Source of the DNA: a virus
DNA length: 21,593 bases
Virus record (IMG/VR): IMGVR_UViG_3300050014_000094
Coordinates: 1-21,593 of that record
Direction: 5' to 3' (one strand)
Of the stretch, positions 479-20,705 are shown one piece after another (positions within the stretch are counted from its first letter, which is position 1; every line of letters starts with the position of its first letter). Both the position numbers and the translations under genes were made by a program. The notes beneath the pieces were generated by a model that saw only the letters and a program-made list of their open reading frames with translations, was not told where the DNA came from and made no database searches.

Positions 479-667
479 ATGGAGGAGGAGGTTTTTAAGA
501 CATTAAAAGAATTATCGCCAGCCGATTATGAGATTTGGCGGTGGTTGCGGCAATCTCGCGATGTTTTAATAGTCTTGAAAGAAGTTCGCCGGACAAAAGT
601 AAGTTTCTATATTCGTGAAGACGGGACTATTGATCGCAGAAGTTTGGAGATAATAAAAAAAATATGA
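479..667 (+). CDS. Hypothetical 62-residue protein
   Basis: An ATG ORF starting MEEEVFKTLKEL and ending in a TGA that overlaps the next ATG (ATGA at 664-667), so it is packed into the same small operon as the lysis genes. It is charged and probably alpha/beta: an amphipathic N-terminal helix, a W-R-W cluster in the middle, then a possible strand (VSFYIREDGTI). I recognise no family. The tight overlaps with both neighbours are the main support that it is translated. Confidence 0.5.
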   Translation: MEEEVFKTLKELSPADYEIWRWLRQSRDVLIVLKEVRRTKVSFYIREDGTIDRRSLEIIKKI

Positions 668-830
668 TTAAAAATTGCAATCAATGCGGTGGATATTTTA
701 AAATTGTACCATCTCAAATAAAAGTGGGGAATATAAGCGAGAGTTAACAGACTGGTTAAGGTTATGCGTTTCTTGCCATAAGAAATATTATTCAAAAATC
801 AAGCCTAAAAAAATTAATATAATTTTTTGA
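664..830 (+). pseudogene. Small zinc-ribbon protein interrupted by a one-base shift
   Basis: The ATG frame from 664 reads MIKNCNQCGGYFKIVPSQIK with one CxxC pair, then stops at TAA 745-747. Sliding back one base at the GTGGGG run (724-729) gives an open continuation that reads GEYKRELTDWLRLCVSCHKK and runs to TGA at 828-830, supplying the second CxxC pair. Together they make a typical 55-residue four-cysteine zinc ribbon with the pairs about 25 residues apart. One missing G in the G run, from assembly or real mutation, would explain it; -1 recoding is less likely because no classical slippery heptamer is present. If only the first frame is made, it is a 27-residue fragment without a complete metal site. 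Confidence 0.5.
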
Positions 831-833
831 TTG

Positions 834-862
834 TTGCATTGGTTTTAATATTTTGTTATAAT
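834..862 (+). promoter_or_regulatory. Sigma-70-type promoter for the terminase/capsid block
   Basis: TTGCAT at 834-839, a 17-bp spacer, and TATAAT at 857-862. The -10 is preceded by TGT, making an extended -10 (TGnTATAAT). Transcription would start near 869-871, exactly where similarity to the leader at 17792 begins. It is the only promoter-like site seen upstream of the terminase genes and may serve the whole block of closely spaced + strand genes that follows. Confidence 0.75.
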
Positions 863-868
863 ATAGTT

Positions 869-913
869 ACAAATTTAATATTTGACGCTTCAAGCGATTA
901 TTCGCCAAGCCAG
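869..913 (+). ncRNA. Conserved leader hairpin, copy A
   Basis: The first transcribed bases (871-889) match 17792-17809 except for one inserted T. They are followed by a hairpin: GCTT 887-890 pairs with AAGC 907-910, and GCGA 894-897 with TCGC 902-905, closing the loop TTAT 898-901, with an asymmetric internal loop (CAA opposite C). The other copy keeps the loop and shape but changes four of the eight base pairs in a compensated manner, which is good evidence that the RNA structure is selected. The 3' strand overlaps the start of the terminator stem, so the two may compete or stack. Confidence 0.7.
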
Positions 914-941
914 TTACCCATTTTATGGGGGCTGGTTTTTT
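908..941 (+). terminator. Intrinsic terminator/attenuator inside the leader of the terminase block
   Basis: AGCCAG 908-913 pairs with CTGGTT 932-937 (one G-T wobble); CCCAT 917-921 pairs with ATGGG 925-929 around a TTT loop; a run of six T follows at 936-941. It lies between the promoter at 857 and the small-terminase gene at 1043, so it would stop most transcripts before the first gene unless it is overridden. Confidence 0.75.
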
Positions 942-1042: not shown

Positions 1043-1420
1043 ATGTCAGTAAAACAGAAAAACAGCGATAAAATCACCGATAAAAGATTAAAAAATCTCA
1101 AACCAGCTTGGAAAGAGGGTGAAAGCGGAAATCCTAACGGCAGACCGCTGGGAACTAAAAATTTTAATACTGATTTTGATGAAGCGGTTAAAGAAATAGC
1201 GGAAGAAAAAAAGATTACCACGAGCGAGGCGCGGAAGATATTAATTAAAAAAGCGTTTACCGAAGCCGAGAAAGGTAATTTTCCTTTTTACAAGGATATT
1301 TGCGACAGATATTACGGCAAAGCGCAAGAAAATTTGGACTTAACAAGCGGAGGCGAAAAACTTTCTATAAATTTTGATCCGATATTTGAATGCAACTCCA
1401 CGAAAAACAACGAGAAATAA
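1043..1420 (+). CDS. terS: Terminase small subunit-like protein (DUF5681 type)
   Basis: A 125-residue protein carrying the signature WKEGESGNPNGRPLGTKN near residues 28-46, the W-x-G-x-SGNP-x-GRP motif of the DUF5681 family, which is regularly found just before large terminase genes. The rest is helical and charged (TTSEARKILIKKAFTEAEKG). Small terminases recognise phage DNA and load the large subunit onto it. It overlaps the next gene by 31 bases, which implies coupled translation, and is the first gene after the promoter, attenuator and element 1. The AAAAAGG directly in front of the ATG is too close to serve as a normal Shine-Dalgarno. Confidence 0.75.
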   Translation: MSVKQKNSDKITDKRLKNLKPAWKEGESGNPNGRPLGTKNFNTDFDEAVKEIAEEKKITTSEARKILIKKAFTEAEKGNFPFYKDICDRYYGKAQENLDLTSGGEKLSINFDPIFECNSTKNNEK

Positions 1421-2748
1421 TTGCGAATAAGGCAAGGTTTAAAGTTATTCGCGCCGGTAGGAAAGGAGGGAAAACAACGATGGAAGTGGAGGATATGAGT
1501 TTTGCGGCGGTTAGCGGGAAAGACAGAAATATTTTCTATATCGCGCCAACCCAGATTCAGGCAAGGGATATTGTTTGGGAAACATTTAAAAGAAAATTAT
1601 TTAAAATTGCAGATTTTAACGAGCAAAGGCTGGAAATAAAAGTACCAACGCAAGAGGGAGGATATTCAATCATAAAATTATCAGGCTGGGAAAATAGAGA
1701 AAATTTTAGAGGAAAATCGGCTTATAAATTGGTATTTGATGAAGTAGACACAATGGTAGAGTTTTTTTTAGGATGGCAAGACATTTTCAGACCGACATTG
1801 CTTGATACTGGAGGGGAGGCGACATTTATCGGAACTCCTAAAAAAGAAAATCCCAATTTGCGAAGATTGGAAAAAGCGGCTCTAACGGACACAACATTCG
1901 CGACATTTCATTTTACTTCGTTAGATAATCCTTATTTGTCGCAGGTTGAATTGGAGAGTATTAAAAATGAATACAAAGATAATCCAGAATCATACCGGCA
2001 AGAGATTTTAGCGGAACATATTGATAATTCCGGAGCCTTATTCAAGTATGAGGCTTTAGTGGATATTTTCAGCAATACGATTGTCAAAAAACCAGAGAAG
2101 TATTTGACAGTAGATATTGCAGATGACGGTAGCGACAAAACAATATTCAGCTTTTGGGAAAGTTTAGAAGAATACCGCCGGGAAGAATTTGAGCGTTTGA
2201 ACACCGAAGGGATTATCCAAAAAATCAGGGAATATGCGCAAACCGAGCGGATACCGTACAGCCAAATTGCCGTTGACGCGATCGGAGTAGGTGCAGGAGT
2301 GGCGAGTAATAGTCTACTGGACGGGATAATCGGGTTTAAGAGTAGTTACGCGGCAATAAAGACCGACACAAACATAGTTTTATTGCCTTACGCGACATTT
2401 ATTGATCCGCCGAAGACCAGCGATTACAAGAATTTGCGAAGCCAGTGCGTTTTCACCCTTGCGGATAAAGTAAACAATCACCAGATCGCTTCTAAAGTAA
2501 CAGGGAAACAGAAAGAAGAAATAATCGAGGAATTGTCCAACTATCAGGACGCAAGCGCCGGAGATGGCAAAAGAATGGCAACGGTGAAAGAGAAAGTTAA
2601 GGAGATTATTGGCAGATCACCGGACTCAAGCGATTGTTTCATTATGAGAATGTATTTTGAGGTTATGGCAAAAGTGTCCCCGGTTCAAAGCGATATAAAA
2701 CCAAGAATATGGCAACACCAAGAACAACGAAAAAACGTAGCAATATAA
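1390..2748 (+). CDS. terL: Terminase large subunit (ATPase-nuclease)
   Basis: A 452-residue packaging motor. The N-terminal ATPase has a Walker A at residues 23-30 (GRKGGKTT) and a Walker B at 114-118 (LVFDE), followed by the coupling-type segment FIGTPKKENPN. The C-terminal RNase-H-like nuclease shows the expected acidic residues: D242 in YLTVDIADDGSDKT, D296 in IAVDAIGVGAG, and D412/D415 in PDSSDCF. It cuts concatemeric phage DNA and pumps it into the prohead through the portal. It starts inside the small-subunit gene and itself overlaps the next ORF by 40 bases. The length is normal for the family and nothing appears missing. Confidence 0.95.
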   Translation: MQLHEKQREIIANKARFKVIRAGRKGGKTTMEVEDMSFAAVSGKDRNIFYIAPTQIQARDIVWETFKRKLFKIADFNEQRLEIKVPTQEGGYSIIKLSGWENRENFRGKSAYKLVFDEVDTMVEFFLGWQDIFRPTLLDTGGEATFIGTPKKENPNLRRLEKAALTDTTFATFHFTSLDNPYLSQVELESIKNEYKDNPESYRQEILAEHIDNSGALFKYEALVDIFSNTIVKKPEKYLTVDIADDGSDKTIFSFWESLEEYRREEFERLNTEGIIQKIREYAQTERIPYSQIAVDAIGVGAGVASNSLLDGIIGFKSSYAAIKTDTNIVLLPYATFIDPPKTSDYKNLRSQCVFTLADKVNNHQIASKVTGKQKEEIIEELSNYQDASAGDGKRMATVKEKVKEIIGRSPDSSDCFIMRMYFEVMAKVSPVQSDIKPRIWQHQEQRKNVAI

Positions 2749-15334: not shown

Positions 15335-17029
15335 ATGGCACAAGGATTTACATTAGAACAATTGCAGGGAATGGGAGCAAAACCCGTTACAAATCCAACC
15401 CCATCGTCTGGTGGATTGACTTTGCAACAGATAATTGCGAAACAACAGGCAACGCCCGCGCCGGTGCAACAGACGGGGCTTTTGCAAAATGTGGGACAGG
15501 GAATAAATGATGTTGTAAATAAAGTTGGTAATACTGCCGGCGAACTTGGCATTGGAATAATCAGGGGCGTGGGTTCAACACTTAATGGAATTTCACAAAA
15601 TGGGCAAAATATAGCCAACGCAACAATCAACAAAATCCCTGGACTTGGAGGGCAACAGCCAATCGCGCAACTCCCCGGTATGGAAACTCAAGGGACGGCG
15701 CAGGCAATAGGAAAAGGCGCAGAACAAATCGGTGAATTTTTCATTCCCTCAAGTTTAGTTACAAAAACAACAAAAGCGTTGGAAGCCACCAGTGTTGTAA
15801 AAGCGGCTAGTGCTTTAGGTAAAGTTGGTAAAATCGCGGGAACAGCAATAAGCCACGGAATACCAGAAGCTTTGAATACGGCAGGAGTAACAATGGCGCA
15901 AACTGGTGGCGATATTGGTGATTCTATTCGTAATGGGATTATTGCCGGGATTGTGCCGGTAGTCGGTAAAGCGTTAAGCGTGTTAAAACCAGTTACAGGT
16001 ACAATTAGATCAATAGCGACTGGAGTTCCAAAAGAGGTATTTCAGGGAATTAAAGAAAATCCCGACGCTTACGCCGTGGCATTGCAACACGTTACGGAAA
16101 ATCCCAAACAACCATTTTTACAATTAGCTGATACCATTAAAAACAGAATGGTTGATACGATGGGTAAGGCACAACAAGCTTATAAACAAGGGGCTGACGC
16201 TTTAGCGCAAAAATTTACAGGTAAAACATTTAATTTAAATCCCGGATTAAAAAGCTTGTTCAATACTCTTAACAACGATTTCCATATTGCAGTTAAGCCT
16301 TCTACCAGTGGAAATTATGCGTATGAAGCTGTCAAAACGGCGCAAACTCCTTTATCGAATAAAGATTTAGGGGTGATTGATGATTTGATACACTCAGTTG
16401 CTCAGTCTAAAAAGGTTGATTTAAAAACCGCTGTTGATCTACGACAGAAATTCGATGAGGTATATAATAATTTACCATTATCCGCTTCTGGCGAAAAAAC
16501 CAAACTTCACGCCGTTGTCCAGTCAATGAGTAATAAGGTTGATGAAATAGTCAACAAAGCAATCCCCGAATTAAAACCTATCAATCAAAACTTTTCCCAA
16601 GTGAAAAATATTTTTGATACATTTAAAACAAAATTTGTAGATAGCAACGGGCAATTAAAGCAAGGAGCTGAACAGTTTTTGTCTAATTTGCAAAACCTTA
16701 ATAAGGGAGCGCAACAACAAAGCATTGCAACCTTGGAAAGATTAACCGGCGTGCCTATTTTAGACAATATAGAACTTCTTAAAAATGCTCAAAAACTGCA
16801 AGGGTTGATCGCGCCTACCGGTAACAGGACAAGAGATATTTTAAACGCTTTGCTGATAGGAAGTGGTGTATGGATGCACAATCCTGTCGCAGCAGGTGCG
16901 GGTTTTCTTGCGACTTCTCCAAGAATGGTCGGGGAAGCATCTATTAAAGCTGAAAAAGCAGTTGAGGCAATAGAAAAAAACGCCCCTCAAGTTTTGAAGG
17001 GTTTAGTTAATCGAGTAACGGGAAAATAA
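15335..17029 (+). CDS. Glycine/alanine-rich ejection-type virion protein, candidate
   Basis: A 564-residue protein starting MAQGFTLEQLQGMGAKPVTN. Residues about 45-235 are rich in G, A, I and V with small-residue zippers (GELGIGIIRGVGSTLNG, IRNGIIAGIVPVVGKALSVL), able to enter a membrane. The C-terminal half is helical and charged, with a final hydrophobic patch (DILNALLIGSGVWMHNP). Together with the preceding gene it resembles the pair of internal proteins that form a channel for DNA ejection in podoviruses. Both genes share the ATGGC start, and a hairpin pair follows the stop. Confidence 0.5.
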   Translation: MAQGFTLEQLQGMGAKPVTNPTPSSGGLTLQQIIAKQQATPAPVQQTGLLQNVGQGINDVVNKVGNTAGELGIGIIRGVGSTLNGISQNGQNIANATINKIPGLGGQQPIAQLPGMETQGTAQAIGKGAEQIGEFFIPSSLVTKTTKALEATSVVKAASALGKVGKIAGTAISHGIPEALNTAGVTMAQTGGDIGDSIRNGIIAGIVPVVGKALSVLKPVTGTIRSIATGVPKEVFQGIKENPDAYAVALQHVTENPKQPFLQLADTIKNRMVDTMGKAQQAYKQGADALAQKFTGKTFNLNPGLKSLFNTLNNDFHIAVKPSTSGNYAYEAVKTAQTPLSNKDLGVIDDLIHSVAQSKKVDLKTAVDLRQKFDEVYNNLPLSASGEKTKLHAVVQSMSNKVDEIVNKAIPELKPINQNFSQVKNIFDTFKTKFVDSNGQLKQGAEQFLSNLQNLNKGAQQQSIATLERLTGVPILDNIELLKNAQKLQGLIAPTGNRTRDILNALLIGSGVWMHNPVAAGAGFLATSPRMVGEASIKAEKAVEAIEKNAPQVLKGLVNRVTGK

Positions 17030-17113: not shown

Positions 17114-17308
17114 TTAGAAAAGTAATTTTTGCTCGCCGCTATTTTTTATCAATCCCTTTTCTTGCATTTCAAGATATTCATAATGATTGACTATACTACG
17201 GCAAGCAGAACACGAAAGATATTCGGGAAACACACATTGAGGATTAAACCTTAAAACCAGTTTACCGCTGCATTTCCTACATTTTGAGTTTGTCGTTGTG
17301 ATGTTCAT
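17114..17308 (-). CDS. Four-cysteine zinc-ribbon protein on the minus strand
   Basis: A 64-residue protein with CRKC near residue 10 and CSAC near residue 33, spaced as in a treble-clef or zinc-ribbon metal site, with a helical C-terminus (YEYLEMQEKGLIKNSG). It is the only - strand gene that I accept. It lies behind a strong - strand promoter and a roughly 365-nt structured leader, a layout typical of a separately controlled regulator or accessory gene. AGGA occurs only 2 nt before the ATG, too close for an ideal ribosome-binding site. It may bind nucleic acid or a host transcription protein, but no named family is recognised. Confidence 0.6.
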   Translation of the reverse strand: MNITTTNSKCRKCSGKLVLRFNPQCVFPEYLSCSACRSIVNHYEYLEMQEKGLIKNSGEQKLLF

Positions 17309-17312
17309 AATC

Positions 17313-17674
17313 CTGATGAGGTAAGTAAGAAAGGGGTAAAGCCAGGGAATTAGATTCCGACTTGTTTCATCAGTAGGCCGTTCTATCCGGGCTGAATAAT
17401 ATAGATGTTTTTATGCGGGTTTAATGGTTTACCCGTTTAACGATCATTGCAAGGGTACTATATCCGTTGCAGGAAAGAAAACCAGATGAGTATAAGGCAC
17501 GGAATGCTGTCCGGCACATCAGAGGTTTTAATGGATGATTACTTGGCAACCAGCGGGGGAACACCCAATTCGCCAGACCTTATCCGCCAGAATATAACAA
17601 AAGTGGATTGACTCTGGCGCGTCAATCCACTTCTACAAAGAATTCTTTAAATTGGGTAATACGCCAGTATCACA
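17313..17674 (-). ncRNA. Structured RNA: long leader of the zinc-ribbon gene or a free-standing ncRNA
   Basis: No + strand gene lies here. Complementary blocks in + coordinates: 17650-17657 with 17563-17570 (8 of 8); 17621-17632 with 17601-17612 (12 of 12); loop 17613-17619 with 17585-17591 (7 of 7); 17478-17483 with 17524-17529 and 17485-17488 with 17517-17520 around an inner hairpin 17497-17515; 17448-17454 with 17464-17471, whose loop (17458-17463) can also pair with 17399-17404; 17416-17420 with 17431-17435; 17346-17350 with 17354-17358; 17313-17319 with 17367-17373. The - strand is favoured because a perfect promoter starts there and because the first pseudoknot has canonical loop lengths only on that strand. 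It does not match tmRNA, RNase P or a tRNA by eye. Confidence 0.55.
17571..17667. repeat. Repeated CGCCAG sites around a hairpin whose loop is their complement
   Basis: CGCCAGA occurs at 17571-17577 and 17585-17591, and ACGCCAG at 17661-17667. The hairpin loop at 17613-17619 is TCTGGCG, the exact complement of the first two. The loop therefore has three possible partners in the same RNA, two downstream and one upstream on the - strand. Confidence 0.65.
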
Positions 17675-17680
17675 ATTTAC

Positions 17681-17710
17681 ATTATACACCCAATCCCTAT
17701 TTTTTGTCAA
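17681..17710 (-). promoter_or_regulatory. Perfect-consensus sigma-70 promoter, minus strand
   Basis: On the - strand TTGACA (17705-17710) is followed after 18 bp by TATAAT (17681-17686). Transcription would start near 17674 and run left through the structured RNA into the zinc-ribbon gene. It is the strongest promoter in the window and stands divergent from the + strand promoter at 17757-17783. A second TTGACA lies further upstream at 17744-17749 without a matching -10. Confidence 0.75.
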
Positions 17711-17754: not shown

Positions 17755-17783
17755 TGTTGCTTTCCATTATTTTTTGCTATAAT
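17755..17783 (+). promoter_or_regulatory. Extended -10 promoter for the appendage block
   Basis: TATAAT at 17778-17783 is preceded by TGC, an extended -10. The -35 is weak: TGTTGC at 17755-17760 (17-bp spacer), or TTGCTT at 17757-17762 with 15 bp. The same GTTGC occurs in the promoter at 834. Transcription would start near 17790-17792, where identity to the other leader begins. Confidence 0.7.
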
Positions 17784-17789
17784 ACAACC

Positions 17790-17832
17790 ATAAATTAATA
17801 TTTGACGCTCTATCTGTTATCAGACGAGCCAG
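17790..17832 (+). ncRNA. Conserved leader hairpin, copy B
   Basis: The first transcribed bases 17792-17809 match 871-889 apart from one missing T. GCTC 17807-17810 pairs with GAGC 17826-17829, and TCTG 17813-17816 with CAGA 17821-17824, around the loop TTAT 17817-17820; the internal loop is TA opposite C. Compared with copy A, one outer and three inner base pairs differ and all keep pairing. The 3' strand shares two bases with the terminator stem. Confidence 0.7.
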
Positions 17833-17864
17833 CGATTCCCTTAAATGGGACGTTGGCTTTTTTT
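17828..17864 (+). terminator. Intrinsic terminator/attenuator just before the appendage genes
   Basis: GCCAGCG 17828-17834 pairs with CGTTGGC 17851-17857 (one G-T wobble), TCCC 17837-17840 with GGGA 17847-17850, and seven T follow at 17858-17864. Only 7 nt separate the T run from the ATG at 17872, so the next gene is made only from transcripts that read through. Confidence 0.85.
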
Positions 17865-17871
17865 CTTTTAT

Positions 17872-18552
17872 ATGGAAGACCAGCTTAAAAAATTGCAAGT
17901 ATTGTTAAGTTCAATGGATCAAGACTTTTTGTCAAAGTCTGATTTTATCAAAGAGTTTGAGCGCGTGCTTTCTTTTGTTAAAGCTTTGAAAGAAGGTAAT
18001 ACCACGGCTTTCGCTAAGATCAATGGTCAAATCGGGGGTATCGTGTCGAGATTAAAGGAAAACAATGAAGTTGAAATTACGCAAGCCAAAAACGAAGTGC
18101 TTGCGCTGGTTTCCGATTATATCAAGCAGATTGACAAAACGACCGCGCAAAAAATGAAAGCGGTTGATTCGAGGTTGGCAGAATTGAAGAGTGGGATGGA
18201 CGGCAAGGATGCTGACGAACAAGCTATTACTAAAACCGTCGCAGAGGCCATACAAGCCCCACTGTTGGACAAAATCGAGAAAGACCTACCTACGCTCGGT
18301 ACAGCAATCAGAGATGGCTTAGAGGTTTTAAATGGCAAGGAACGATTGGATAAAAGCGCGATCAAGGGATTAGACGATTATGACGAAGTTGCAAGGTTGG
18401 CCAAACAACCGAAAGCGGGAGGATTTGGCGGGGGATTGAGTAGGGGTGTAGCCGATGGCCTTTACATAACCGGCGTAGGAACCCATAAAATGACCGTCGG
18501 CGCGGTTGAACCAACCAACCCCGCCGAAGGTGATATTTGGATTCAAATTTAA
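17872..18552 (+). CDS. Coiled-coil appendage/fibre protein
   Basis: A 226-residue protein starting MEDQLKKLQVLLSSMDQDFL. Most of it is heptad-like helix with alternating I, L, K and A (about residues 1-160). A glycine-rich hinge (GGFGGGLSRG) follows and the C-terminus HKMTVGAVEPTNPAEGDIWI is a phrase seen at the end of many phage fibres and neck appendages. An upstream in-frame ATG at 17845 would start inside the terminator loop and add a tract of F and W residues, so 17872 is the better start. It is the first gene after leader B. It probably forms a trimeric stalk. Confidence 0.65.
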   Translation: MEDQLKKLQVLLSSMDQDFLSKSDFIKEFERVLSFVKALKEGNTTAFAKINGQIGGIVSRLKENNEVEITQAKNEVLALVSDYIKQIDKTTAQKMKAVDSRLAELKSGMDGKDADEQAITKTVAEAIQAPLLDKIEKDLPTLGTAIRDGLEVLNGKERLDKSAIKGLDDYDEVARLAKQPKAGGFGGGLSRGVADGLYITGVGTHKMTVGAVEPTNPAEGDIWIQI

Positions 18553-19505: not shown

Positions 19506-20705
19506 ATGGATAAAAAAATCGCTACGCCAAAAAAGCCTTCAGTTAATATTGTTGTGCCGTCTTCGCGATATTCGATGCACCCGGAATGTGCGATGTCATT
19601 ATTTGAGAACTTTATGGATCTGATCGCGCACGGTTATGGCGTGGTGTTTAAGTTTATGGCTTCATCGTCGTTTATTTCCGCAACGCGCAATATGTGCGCC
19701 GTGGATTTAAAACAAGACTATTTGATGTTTGTTGACGATGATGAGAAATTTCCGCCTTACGCTATCCGGCAGCTGCTTGAAGCCAACAAGGATATTATCG
19801 GCGGCCTTTATTACAAGAAAGGCGACGATTTTAACCCGATGGCGGTAGTTATCAGCCAGGAGAAAATGAATATCGATTACGTCAAAGATATTCCGACCAA
19901 ACCCTTTTTGTGTGATGGGGTAAACACCGGATTTTTACTTATTAAGAAAAAGGTGTTTGAAGCTTTTACGCCGGATAAAGTCAAGGAGATGGGAATGCCG
20001 TTTAACTTTTGGACACGTCCGTCCGACGGCCGGGAAATATCCGAAGATTGGGCATTCTGTATGCGCGCGTCAAAACTGGGGTTCAAAATATGGTGCGACC
20101 CGACGTTTCCTATCGGCCACATGGGGGATAAGGAATATACCCGTACCGATTACGAATCAAAACGCCAATATCAAGAATTTGTGGACAAGAATATTGAGTA
20201 CCGCAACAATATTGAAGGTTGGATGAAGCCGGTGGAATTGGATTGGCTGTATAAGGCCGCGAAAGGTATGCAAACCATTGTTGAAATCGGCTCTTGGAAA
20301 GGAAAAAGCACCGCGGCGCTTTGTAGCGCGTGCAAGGGTACGGTTTATTCGGTTGATACGTTTAAAGGCAGCGCAAGCGAAAAAGAAGAACACGCCGAAG
20401 CCAAACAACGCGACATATACCAGGATTTTAAAGCCAATACCAAACAATTCAAAAATCTTGTTTCTTGCAAGATGACGAGTTTGAAGGCTTCAAAGAAATT
20501 CAAAGACAAATCCATCGATATGGTTTTTATCGACGGCGAACACACTTACGAGGCGGTCAAACAAGATATTGAATTATGGCTTCCCAAGTGCAAGAAACTG
20601 ATTTGCGGACACGATTATAATTATAACGATGTGGCGCAAGCGGTTAATCAGAAATTTGGTTATGTTGATACCGCGGAATGTATATGGATTAAAAATATAG
20701 TTTAA
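19506..20705 (+). CDS. Glycosyltransferase-methyltransferase fusion
   Basis: A 399-residue two-domain enzyme. The N-terminal part (about 1-230) is a GT-A fold glycosyltransferase: VNIVVPSSRYSMHPECAMSL, then FVDDDEKFPP with the metal-binding D-x-D at D77-D79, IGGLYYKKG, and SEDWAFCMRASKLGFKIWCD that fits the acceptor/base region. The C-terminal part (about 235-399) is a class I SAM-dependent methyltransferase with motif I VEIGSWKGKST at 259-269 and VFIDGEHTYEAVKQDI at 340-355, typical of the Methyltransf_24 group. Together they could transfer a sugar and then methylate it, or a neighbouring sugar, on a virion protein or a host surface glycan. All key motifs look intact. Confidence 0.8.
   Translation: MDKKIATPKKPSVNIVVPSSRYSMHPECAMSLFENFMDLIAHGYGVVFKFMASSSFISATRNMCAVDLKQDYLMFVDDDEKFPPYAIRQLLEANKDIIGGLYYKKGDDFNPMAVVISQEKMNIDYVKDIPTKPFLCDGVNTGFLLIKKKVFEAFTPDKVKEMGMPFNFWTRPSDGREISEDWAFCMRASKLGFKIWCDPTFPIGHMGDKEYTRTDYESKRQYQEFVDKNIEYRNNIEGWMKPVELDWLYKAAKGMQTIVEIGSWKGKSTAALCSACKGTVYSVDTFKGSASEKEEHAEAKQRDIYQDFKANTKQFKNLVSCKMTSLKASKKFKDKSIDMVFIDGEHTYEAVKQDIELWLPKCKKLICGHDYNYNDVAQAVNQKFGYVDTAECIWIKNIV

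Follow-up and report, generated by a model that had tools for sequence, protein, structure and literature searches.

In the RAT elements read by BglG and LicT, an intrinsic terminator shares bases of its 5' arm with a hairpin that has an asymmetric internal loop, and a protein that holds the hairpin prevents termination. The nut sites of phage lambda are built differently, as a linear block, boxA (consensus CGCTCTTA), followed by boxB, a small hairpin with a purine-rich, GNRA-like pentaloop. According to excerpts of the respective reports, Q proteins need a -10-like sequence together with a Q site between -35 and -10 (PMC6606751), AlpA has equivalent requirements (PMC9371919), and the putL and putR RNAs of HK022, about 70 nt long and folded into two stem-loops, act on polymerase without a dedicated protein (PMC9378689).

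Here we describe a pair of leaders that has features in common with each of these systems. They lie in a stretch of 21,593 nt, referred to as the window (positions 1 to 21,593 of IMG/VR record IMGVR_UViG_3300050014_000094), from a virus that is, judged by its gene content, a tailed phage. A near-identical sister contig, IMGVR_UViG_3300050015_000074 (31.8 kb; 4 differences in 20,116 bases compared), extends the window by 11.7 kb upstream. The recognisable genes are on the + strand, in the order DnaD-/DnaC-like helicase loaders, a NinG-like gene and a methyltransferase, an M23 peptidase, leader 1, a DUF5681 protein and the terminase, followed by a major-head-like protein and large uncharacterised genes up to position 17029, and then by leader 2 (Table 1). 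Leader 1 stands immediately 5' of the terminase and head genes on the same strand; the DUF5681 protein is probably the small terminase subunit, a role suggested by its position. Behind leader 2, a single protein has a Pfam match above the cut-off, and it is methyltransferase/glycosyltransferase-like. We tentatively read both copies as promoter-proximal attenuators, one serving the terminase/head operon and the other a second transcription unit that we infer to be late, a reading to which we give slightly less than an even chance.

Table 1. Coordinates of the features discussed in the text; positions refer to the window unless a locus is named.
Feature	Position	Strand	Basis or remark
Promoter 1, extended -10 (TGTTATAAT), weak -35	854..862	+	sequence and promoter scans; predicted start
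Promoter 2, extended -10 (TGCTATAAT), weak -35	17775..17783	+	sequence and promoter scans
Initial transcribed block, copy 1 (ACAAATTTAATATTTGACGCT), including -10-like TAATAT at 876-881	869..889	+	alignments
Initial transcribed block, copy 2 (ATAAATTAATATTTGACGCT), including -10-like TAATAT at 17796-17801	17790..17809	+	alignments
Hairpin II, copy 1, GCTT-CAA-GCGA-TTAT-TCGC-C-AAGC	887..910	+	alignment, folding, pair counts
Hairpin II, copy 2, GCTC-TA-TCTG-TTAT-CAGA-C-GAGC	17807..17829	+	alignment, folding, pair counts
Predicted intrinsic terminator, copy 1, 5' foot AAGC common to hairpin II, U run 936-941	907..941	+	fold; constrained fold
Predicted intrinsic terminator, copy 2, 5' foot GAGC common to hairpin II	17826..17864	+	fold; constrained fold
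First gene after leader 1, DUF5681 protein adjoining terminase large subunit	1043..1420	+	Pfam PF18932
Terminase large subunit	1390..2748	+	Pfam PF03237, phrog_2
First gene after leader 2, 226 aa	17872..18552	+	7 bases separate its ATG from the end of terminator copy 2
G007-like leader	L084:9949-10035	+	behind promoter-like site
G007-like leader	L084:2208-2298	-	behind promoter-like site
G007-like leader	L168:1288-1381	-	behind promoter-like site
G007-like leader	L169:4878-4981	-	behind promoter-like site
G007-like leader	L171:2496-2588	+	behind promoter-like site
G007-like leader	L172:3180-3275	-	behind promoter-like site

Several smaller features of the surroundings can be recorded here. Just 5' of leader 1, at 664-830 (+), a small zinc-ribbon-like protein is split between two frames, one CxxC half in each, which may reflect a broken gene, a frameshift or chance. 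Of the four sister-contig differences, two (window positions 17877 and 17883) are in the opening codons of the gene behind leader 2. None of the 20 main gene starts in the window passes a simple test for a Shine-Dalgarno (SD) sequence, the 5' regions being AT-rich, and the host lineage may rarely use such sequences; the AAGG at the gene start at 1043 is too close to the ATG to count (duplex -3.4). Attenuation by a leader peptide was considered and rejected: a TTG-started frame spans both leaders, with peptides that diverge after three residues and no SD sequence by eye.

The first-pass annotation of this DNA had pointed to two TATAAT promoters with an extended -10 some 17 kb apart, to RNAs with near-identical first bases, and to a hairpin with a constant TTAT loop followed by a terminator; we find all of these in both copies, the last by sequence and by folding. 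TATAAT lies at 857-862 and at 17778-17783, preceded in each case by TG and one base, and the -35 boxes of both promoters are poor (best match 3/6). RNA positions are counted here from assumed starts at 869 and 17790, 7 nt past the -10. Over the first 20 or so transcribed nucleotides the copies differ by one substitution and one 1-nt gap, and their longest run of identity, the transcribed 15-mer TTAATATTTGACGCT, occurs twice in the window, both times on the + strand. A 17-mer form of the shared block is expected 0.18 times by chance when up to 3 mismatches are allowed. Under strict settings of a promoter-plus-terminator scan, the two leaders are the sole such units in the 31.8-kb sister contig, and a laxer scan adds a minus-strand unit at 20430 of the window. 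The specificity of the leader pair rests on the 15-mer count, the 17-mer expectation and the promoter-plus-terminator scan. A further scan looked in each contig for repeats shared by pairs of initial transcribed regions. Overlapping -10 sites and low-complexity repeats dominated its output, and controls often scored as high as real contigs (the window's top control reached 16, the score of the true pair); the scan is unused as evidence. As a separate observation, a divergent consensus promoter, TTGACA-18-TATAAT (17681..17710, minus strand), lies about 65 bp from the -10 of promoter 2 and is directed towards a 64-aa ORF that has two CxxC motifs (17114-17308); about 40 nt on, transcription would reach a hairpin whose 12-bp stem is perfect and whose tail is T-rich, promoter and hairpin together occupying 17597-17710.

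The hairpin that follows the shared block, hairpin II, consists of four pairs, an internal loop (3/1 in copy 1, 2/1 in copy 2), a further four pairs and a UUAU loop. It had been annotated as differing between copies in four of eight pairs with all pairing retained, and the counts agree: all eight pairs are Watson-Crick in both copies, with four changed two-sidedly, none one-sidedly and none broken. When the 8 changed bases were redrawn at random, all pairs were Watson-Crick in 1.2% of draws (3.8% including G-U), and shuffled segments give the hairpin II layout in 0.03%. The grouping of the 8 changes into 4 whole pairs contributes a further factor of about 0.005 (hand arithmetic, 70/12870), and no more than one two-sided change survives when the pairing partners are slid by 1-3 columns. 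The covariation tool's own shuffle control, with only two rows to work on, is weaker, the observed values being reached in 36 of 500 shuffles. The redraw and shuffle figures lend support to the earlier suggestion that the RNA fold is probably selected; the pairing of hairpin II looks selected, on fair evidence from two sequences of one lineage. The full leaders also fold better than their dinucleotide shuffles (z of -4.24 and -3.81), the larger share of this stability coming from the terminators (-15.6 and -19.6 kcal/mol alone, compared with -7.2 and -7.5 for hairpin II).

In both copies, the foot of the terminator is built from bases that also form part of the lower stem of hairpin II, so that the two full structures are predicted to be mutually exclusive. 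In folds of the growing RNA, hairpin II has fully formed at 46 nt in both copies and persists at 54 and 62 nt; at 70 nt the predicted fold switches, and the terminator takes AAGC or GAGC, the 3' side of the lower stem. The change of this foot from AAGC to GAGC keeps pairing with both alternative partners. The terminator conformation is the more stable state in both copies by thermodynamic prediction, and the two states stay close in energy despite the changed sequence of hairpin and terminator: forcing the lower stem of hairpin II costs 2.4 kcal/mol in copy 1 and 2.8 kcal/mol in copy 2. With the hairpin forced, 1 or 2 nt separate the remaining terminator stem from the U run, which amounts to partial exclusion only, and the overlap could be mere compactness. 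As modelled, this is the anatomy of an attenuator, and the competition was absent from the first-pass annotation. That annotation had proposed an antitermination or attenuation leader with a parallel in HK022 put; attenuation is strengthened by the predicted competition of hairpin and terminator for shared bases in each copy, while the put parallel is not supported (see below). The predicted intrinsic terminator between promoter and first gene in both leaders likewise supports an attenuator.

In having a hairpin that overlaps the 5' arm of an intrinsic terminator, both window leaders resemble RAT. The likeness is one of architecture, and they differ in standing at the transcription start of phage gene blocks, in being used twice and in carrying a constant 5' block. 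No BglG-type protein is among the Pfam matches of the 30 entries scanned (one gene entered twice).

We propose that RNA polymerase would start at the extended -10 and copy the near-constant block of about 20 nt and then hairpin II, which would form first and hold the 5' foot of the terminator. Without intervention, the rest of the terminator would be made and would displace the lower half of hairpin II, and transcription would stop at about 70 nt. A phage or host factor might bind the constant block, the UUAU loop or both, and either keep hairpin II closed or change the polymerase there. With the hairpin held or the polymerase modified, the terminator would be shortened at its foot and transcription would read through into both units together. 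Among the points against this attenuator reading are that the early proteins scanned include none recognisable as an antiterminator, and that none of the genes after leader 2 is given a virion function by the scans.

The main rival, which we nevertheless consider unlikely, is that the two sites are Q-type late promoters, at which a phage protein would bind the promoter DNA, load on polymerase halted at a -10-like site and carry it through the terminator, hairpin II being secondary. The order helicase loader, NinG, M23 peptidase, leader, terminase resembles the gene order of lambda. As at PR'-tR' of lambda and 21 for Q and at PalpB-tB for AlpA, an intrinsic terminator lies just downstream of the promoter in both copies, and the first transcribed bases hold a -10-like site, TAATAT at +8 in copy 1 and +7 in copy 2 (a 4/6 match to -10), although such matches come easily in AT-rich DNA. 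In the window, however, conservation is highest in a block downstream of the start, rather than between -35 and -10. The -10 hexamers are identical (6/6) and the discriminators agree at 2/6; upstream of the -10, 12 of 30 bases agree in an ungapped comparison, with 9/17 in the nearest 17 and 3/13 in the further 13. The nearest 17 bases leave room for a short shared (6-bp) site, with no clear element, but the segment as a whole is much less alike than the transcribed block, and it is T-rich. Judged from the alignment, sequence-level conservation therefore lies mainly in the transcribed part, with a short shared element possible beside the -10, and pairing-level conservation is that of hairpin II and the terminator. 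Two sets of ten proteins gave no Q match in PHROGs or Pfam, Q families being diverse, and the three Pfam Q families named in an excerpt of one report are absent among the matches (PMC7171158). A Q-type switch would also leave the compensated hairpin unexplained.

Compared with the attenuator reading, it is rather improbable that each unit gives an independent small RNA, a terminated transcript of about 70 nt that acts elsewhere while the downstream genes use other promoters. The strong predicted terminators would suit such a role, the full leaders folding at -22.3 and -22.9 kcal/mol, and in the terminase relative L084 the unit at 2310 (-) has no ORF of at least 90 aa ahead on its strand (71- and 85-aa ones are present). 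Leader 2 also matches a Burkholderia sRNA of Rfam below threshold (score 20.4 bits, threshold 40 bits; E 0.014, the lowest E-value among the sub-threshold matches), and copy 1 lacks this match; at the gathering score, Rfam gives no match in the window. Against a free-standing RNA, both units lie directly before genes of the same direction, no + promoter-like site is listed between the terminators and the first genes of either leader, and the gene of copy 2 begins just past the U run.

We give little credence to passive duplication, in which a promoter-terminator cassette would have been copied and would now act, unregulated, as a pair of ordinary promoters or insulators. Such an origin would fit the identity of the copies at 58 of the 89 columns aligned between the -10 and the U run (counted by hand), and the terminator alone would explain part of the pairing constraint; the four two-sided compensated changes in hairpin II speak against it, as do its upper four pairs, which lie outside the terminator and three of which are changed two-sidedly. 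That the RNA by itself renders polymerase resistant to termination, as put does, is highly improbable: it sits at the very start of two transcription units and copy 1 is predicted to form two hairpins, but the 5' AU hairpin is predicted for that copy only (-1.3 kcal/mol, against +1.0 in copy 2), the hairpin that has support is short, constitutive resistance would make little sense of a terminator 30 nt further on, and Rfam gives no match at its gathering score.

The likeness to HK022 put is that of an RNA element in two operons, expected to affect termination; the window leader has one supported 8-pair hairpin, which overlaps the terminator, and a second stem-loop is not predicted in copy 2. 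With lambda nut the leader shares a constant linear block, a small hairpin with a constant loop and a variable stem, and use in two transcription units. It differs in its loop, a UUAU tetraloop in both copies as opposed to the purine-rich boxB loop, and in the terminator that abuts the hairpin, and an N gene was not recognised. A comparison by eye with boxA picks out CGCTCTAT in copy 2 and CGCTTCAA in copy 1, the resemblance in copy 2 being confined to CGCT and two further bases. For put and for nut alike, a feature that was tested disagrees with the window leaders.

The covariance-model search suggested in the first-pass annotation was carried out with a model built from both copies and run over 86 sources (1.18 Mb in total, among them the terminase relatives). 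It found both copies and their duplicates in the sister contig, and its three other matches had E-values of at least 3.5; by this model and by pattern alike, the leader was not found in the terminase relatives. Four patterns were run against IMG/VR. The first gave 14 stretches, two of them in the sister contig, and 11 of the other 12 (L013 left out) were inspected and appear by eye to be chance matches. The second gave 61, two being the leader's own; a T run was in range in 12 of the remaining 59, and none of these showed a hairpin-terminator layout by eye. The third, whose gap was too short to match the window itself, gave 16 stretches, by eye chance matches, and the fourth 77, two of them own, with 2 of the 75 others folding at -9 kcal/mol or below and neither having the leader layout. 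The IMG/VR stretches that combine promoter and shared block look like chance and are not close relatives, and the single match of the leader pattern in GTDB contigs is also chance. The 148 pattern-matched loci include no close relative of the phage (best terminase identity 30%; one locus shares pentapeptide repeats at 59-64%).

The terminase itself finds 57 IMG/VR loci (57-71% identity, the sister contig excepted), and a terminase pattern in GTDB contigs returned 22 stretches, none of them relatives. Among cultured phages 124 records match the terminase, all at less than 60% identity and none over more than 80% of its length; the 20 listed of these 124 have 27-34% identity over 48-63% of the length. 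No such leader is among the literature matches listed. The patterns and model used place the leader in a single phage lineage, which leaves two copies as the basis of the covariation.

Promoter-plus-terminator units were also sought more widely. In 29 pieces the scan returned 32 units, the two own leaders included, against 17 in reversed sequence, so that about half of the matches are noise; a laxer scan gave 56 units after duplicate removal against 50 in reversed sequence without such removal. Units before the terminase gene were not clearly enriched (3/44 against 1.2 expected, P 0.12), and admitting the -10 variant TACTAT, post hoc after L035, gave 4/44 against 1.3 expected (P 0.04); the duplicates L017, L034 and L047 had been left out of this test beforehand, as had loci with less than 500 nt upstream. 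The leaders of terminase relatives have no sequence in common with the window leader. In L041, L061 and both L084 leaders, as in the window, the RNA is predicted to fold one way before the terminator is made and another way in the end, and no fold exchange is predicted in L045 and L023, for example. Separately, L050:6235 (+)/L088:6358 (-), which are on the same contig, and L053:2564 (+) have an initial transcribed AAAGAAAA(G)CAA stretch in common, followed by terminators; these promoters of two terminase relatives perhaps represent another leader used twice.

The two leaders of L084 (contig IMGVR_UViG_3300033571_006685) are of another design. Their terminator pattern finds the same RNA in four more contigs, giving six leaders in five phage contigs (the G007-like leaders of Table 1), and a relaxed pattern returned 21 stretches, the six known ones and 15 that are non-members by eye. 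These leaders are about 90 nt long, and one of the five contigs has two copies. In all six, the predicted pre-terminator fold is a hairpin A followed by a helix B that encloses the rest, and the complete RNA folds as the terminator. The gap between hairpin A and helix B is 0 nt in five members and 1 nt in one, and the first six pairs of helix B are Watson-Crick in 6/6, pairs 4 and 6 each occurring in all four types. The modelled antiterminator of this family covaries strongly and is exclusive with an intrinsic terminator, whose arms are fixed by the search pattern and uninformative in their constancy. Automatic alignment caught the terminator and inner hairpin only, and the resulting model, R2, consequently lacks helices A and B. 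Over 58 sources R2 found no member in the window or in terminase relatives except L084, opposite-strand echoes aside; it also matches one L022/L097 locus at E 0.011. In the other four contigs it gave no strong second copy (one match, E 0.38), and Rfam at the gathering score matched no leader in these loci, its sole match being a tRNA. A ParB-like gene lies downstream of the leader in L167 and L171 (translation by eye).

The second family resembles the window leader in its promoter-like site, its hairpin at the RNA start, the exclusive antiterminator and terminator, and its occurrence twice in one phage. The two are unrelated in sequence and topology: in the second family helix B abuts hairpin A, and the 5' arm of the terminator lies inside helix B. 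Because a second, unrelated family of exclusive-fold leaders was found in the same survey, our data suggest that the attenuator-leader design recurs in phages, and the window is not thereby a member of that family.

To our knowledge, the timing of late genes in uncultured phages is mostly unknown. The two natural copies in one genome mark the constant 5' block and the UUAU loop as candidates for recognition, and the covarying parts as candidates for what merely has to pair. In its furthest form, which we hold to be doubtful, the attenuator reading would make this a new class of antitermination leader, in which the constant 5' block and UUAU hairpin are read at both units by a phage-encoded RNA-binding antiterminator of no known family, replacing a DNA-loaded Q switch in a host that rarely uses SD sequences. 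If the attenuator reading is true, the late genes of this phage would be controlled by a shared RNA attenuator instead of a promoter-bound Q, and one switch could turn on both gene blocks, including the capsid and DNA-packaging genes.
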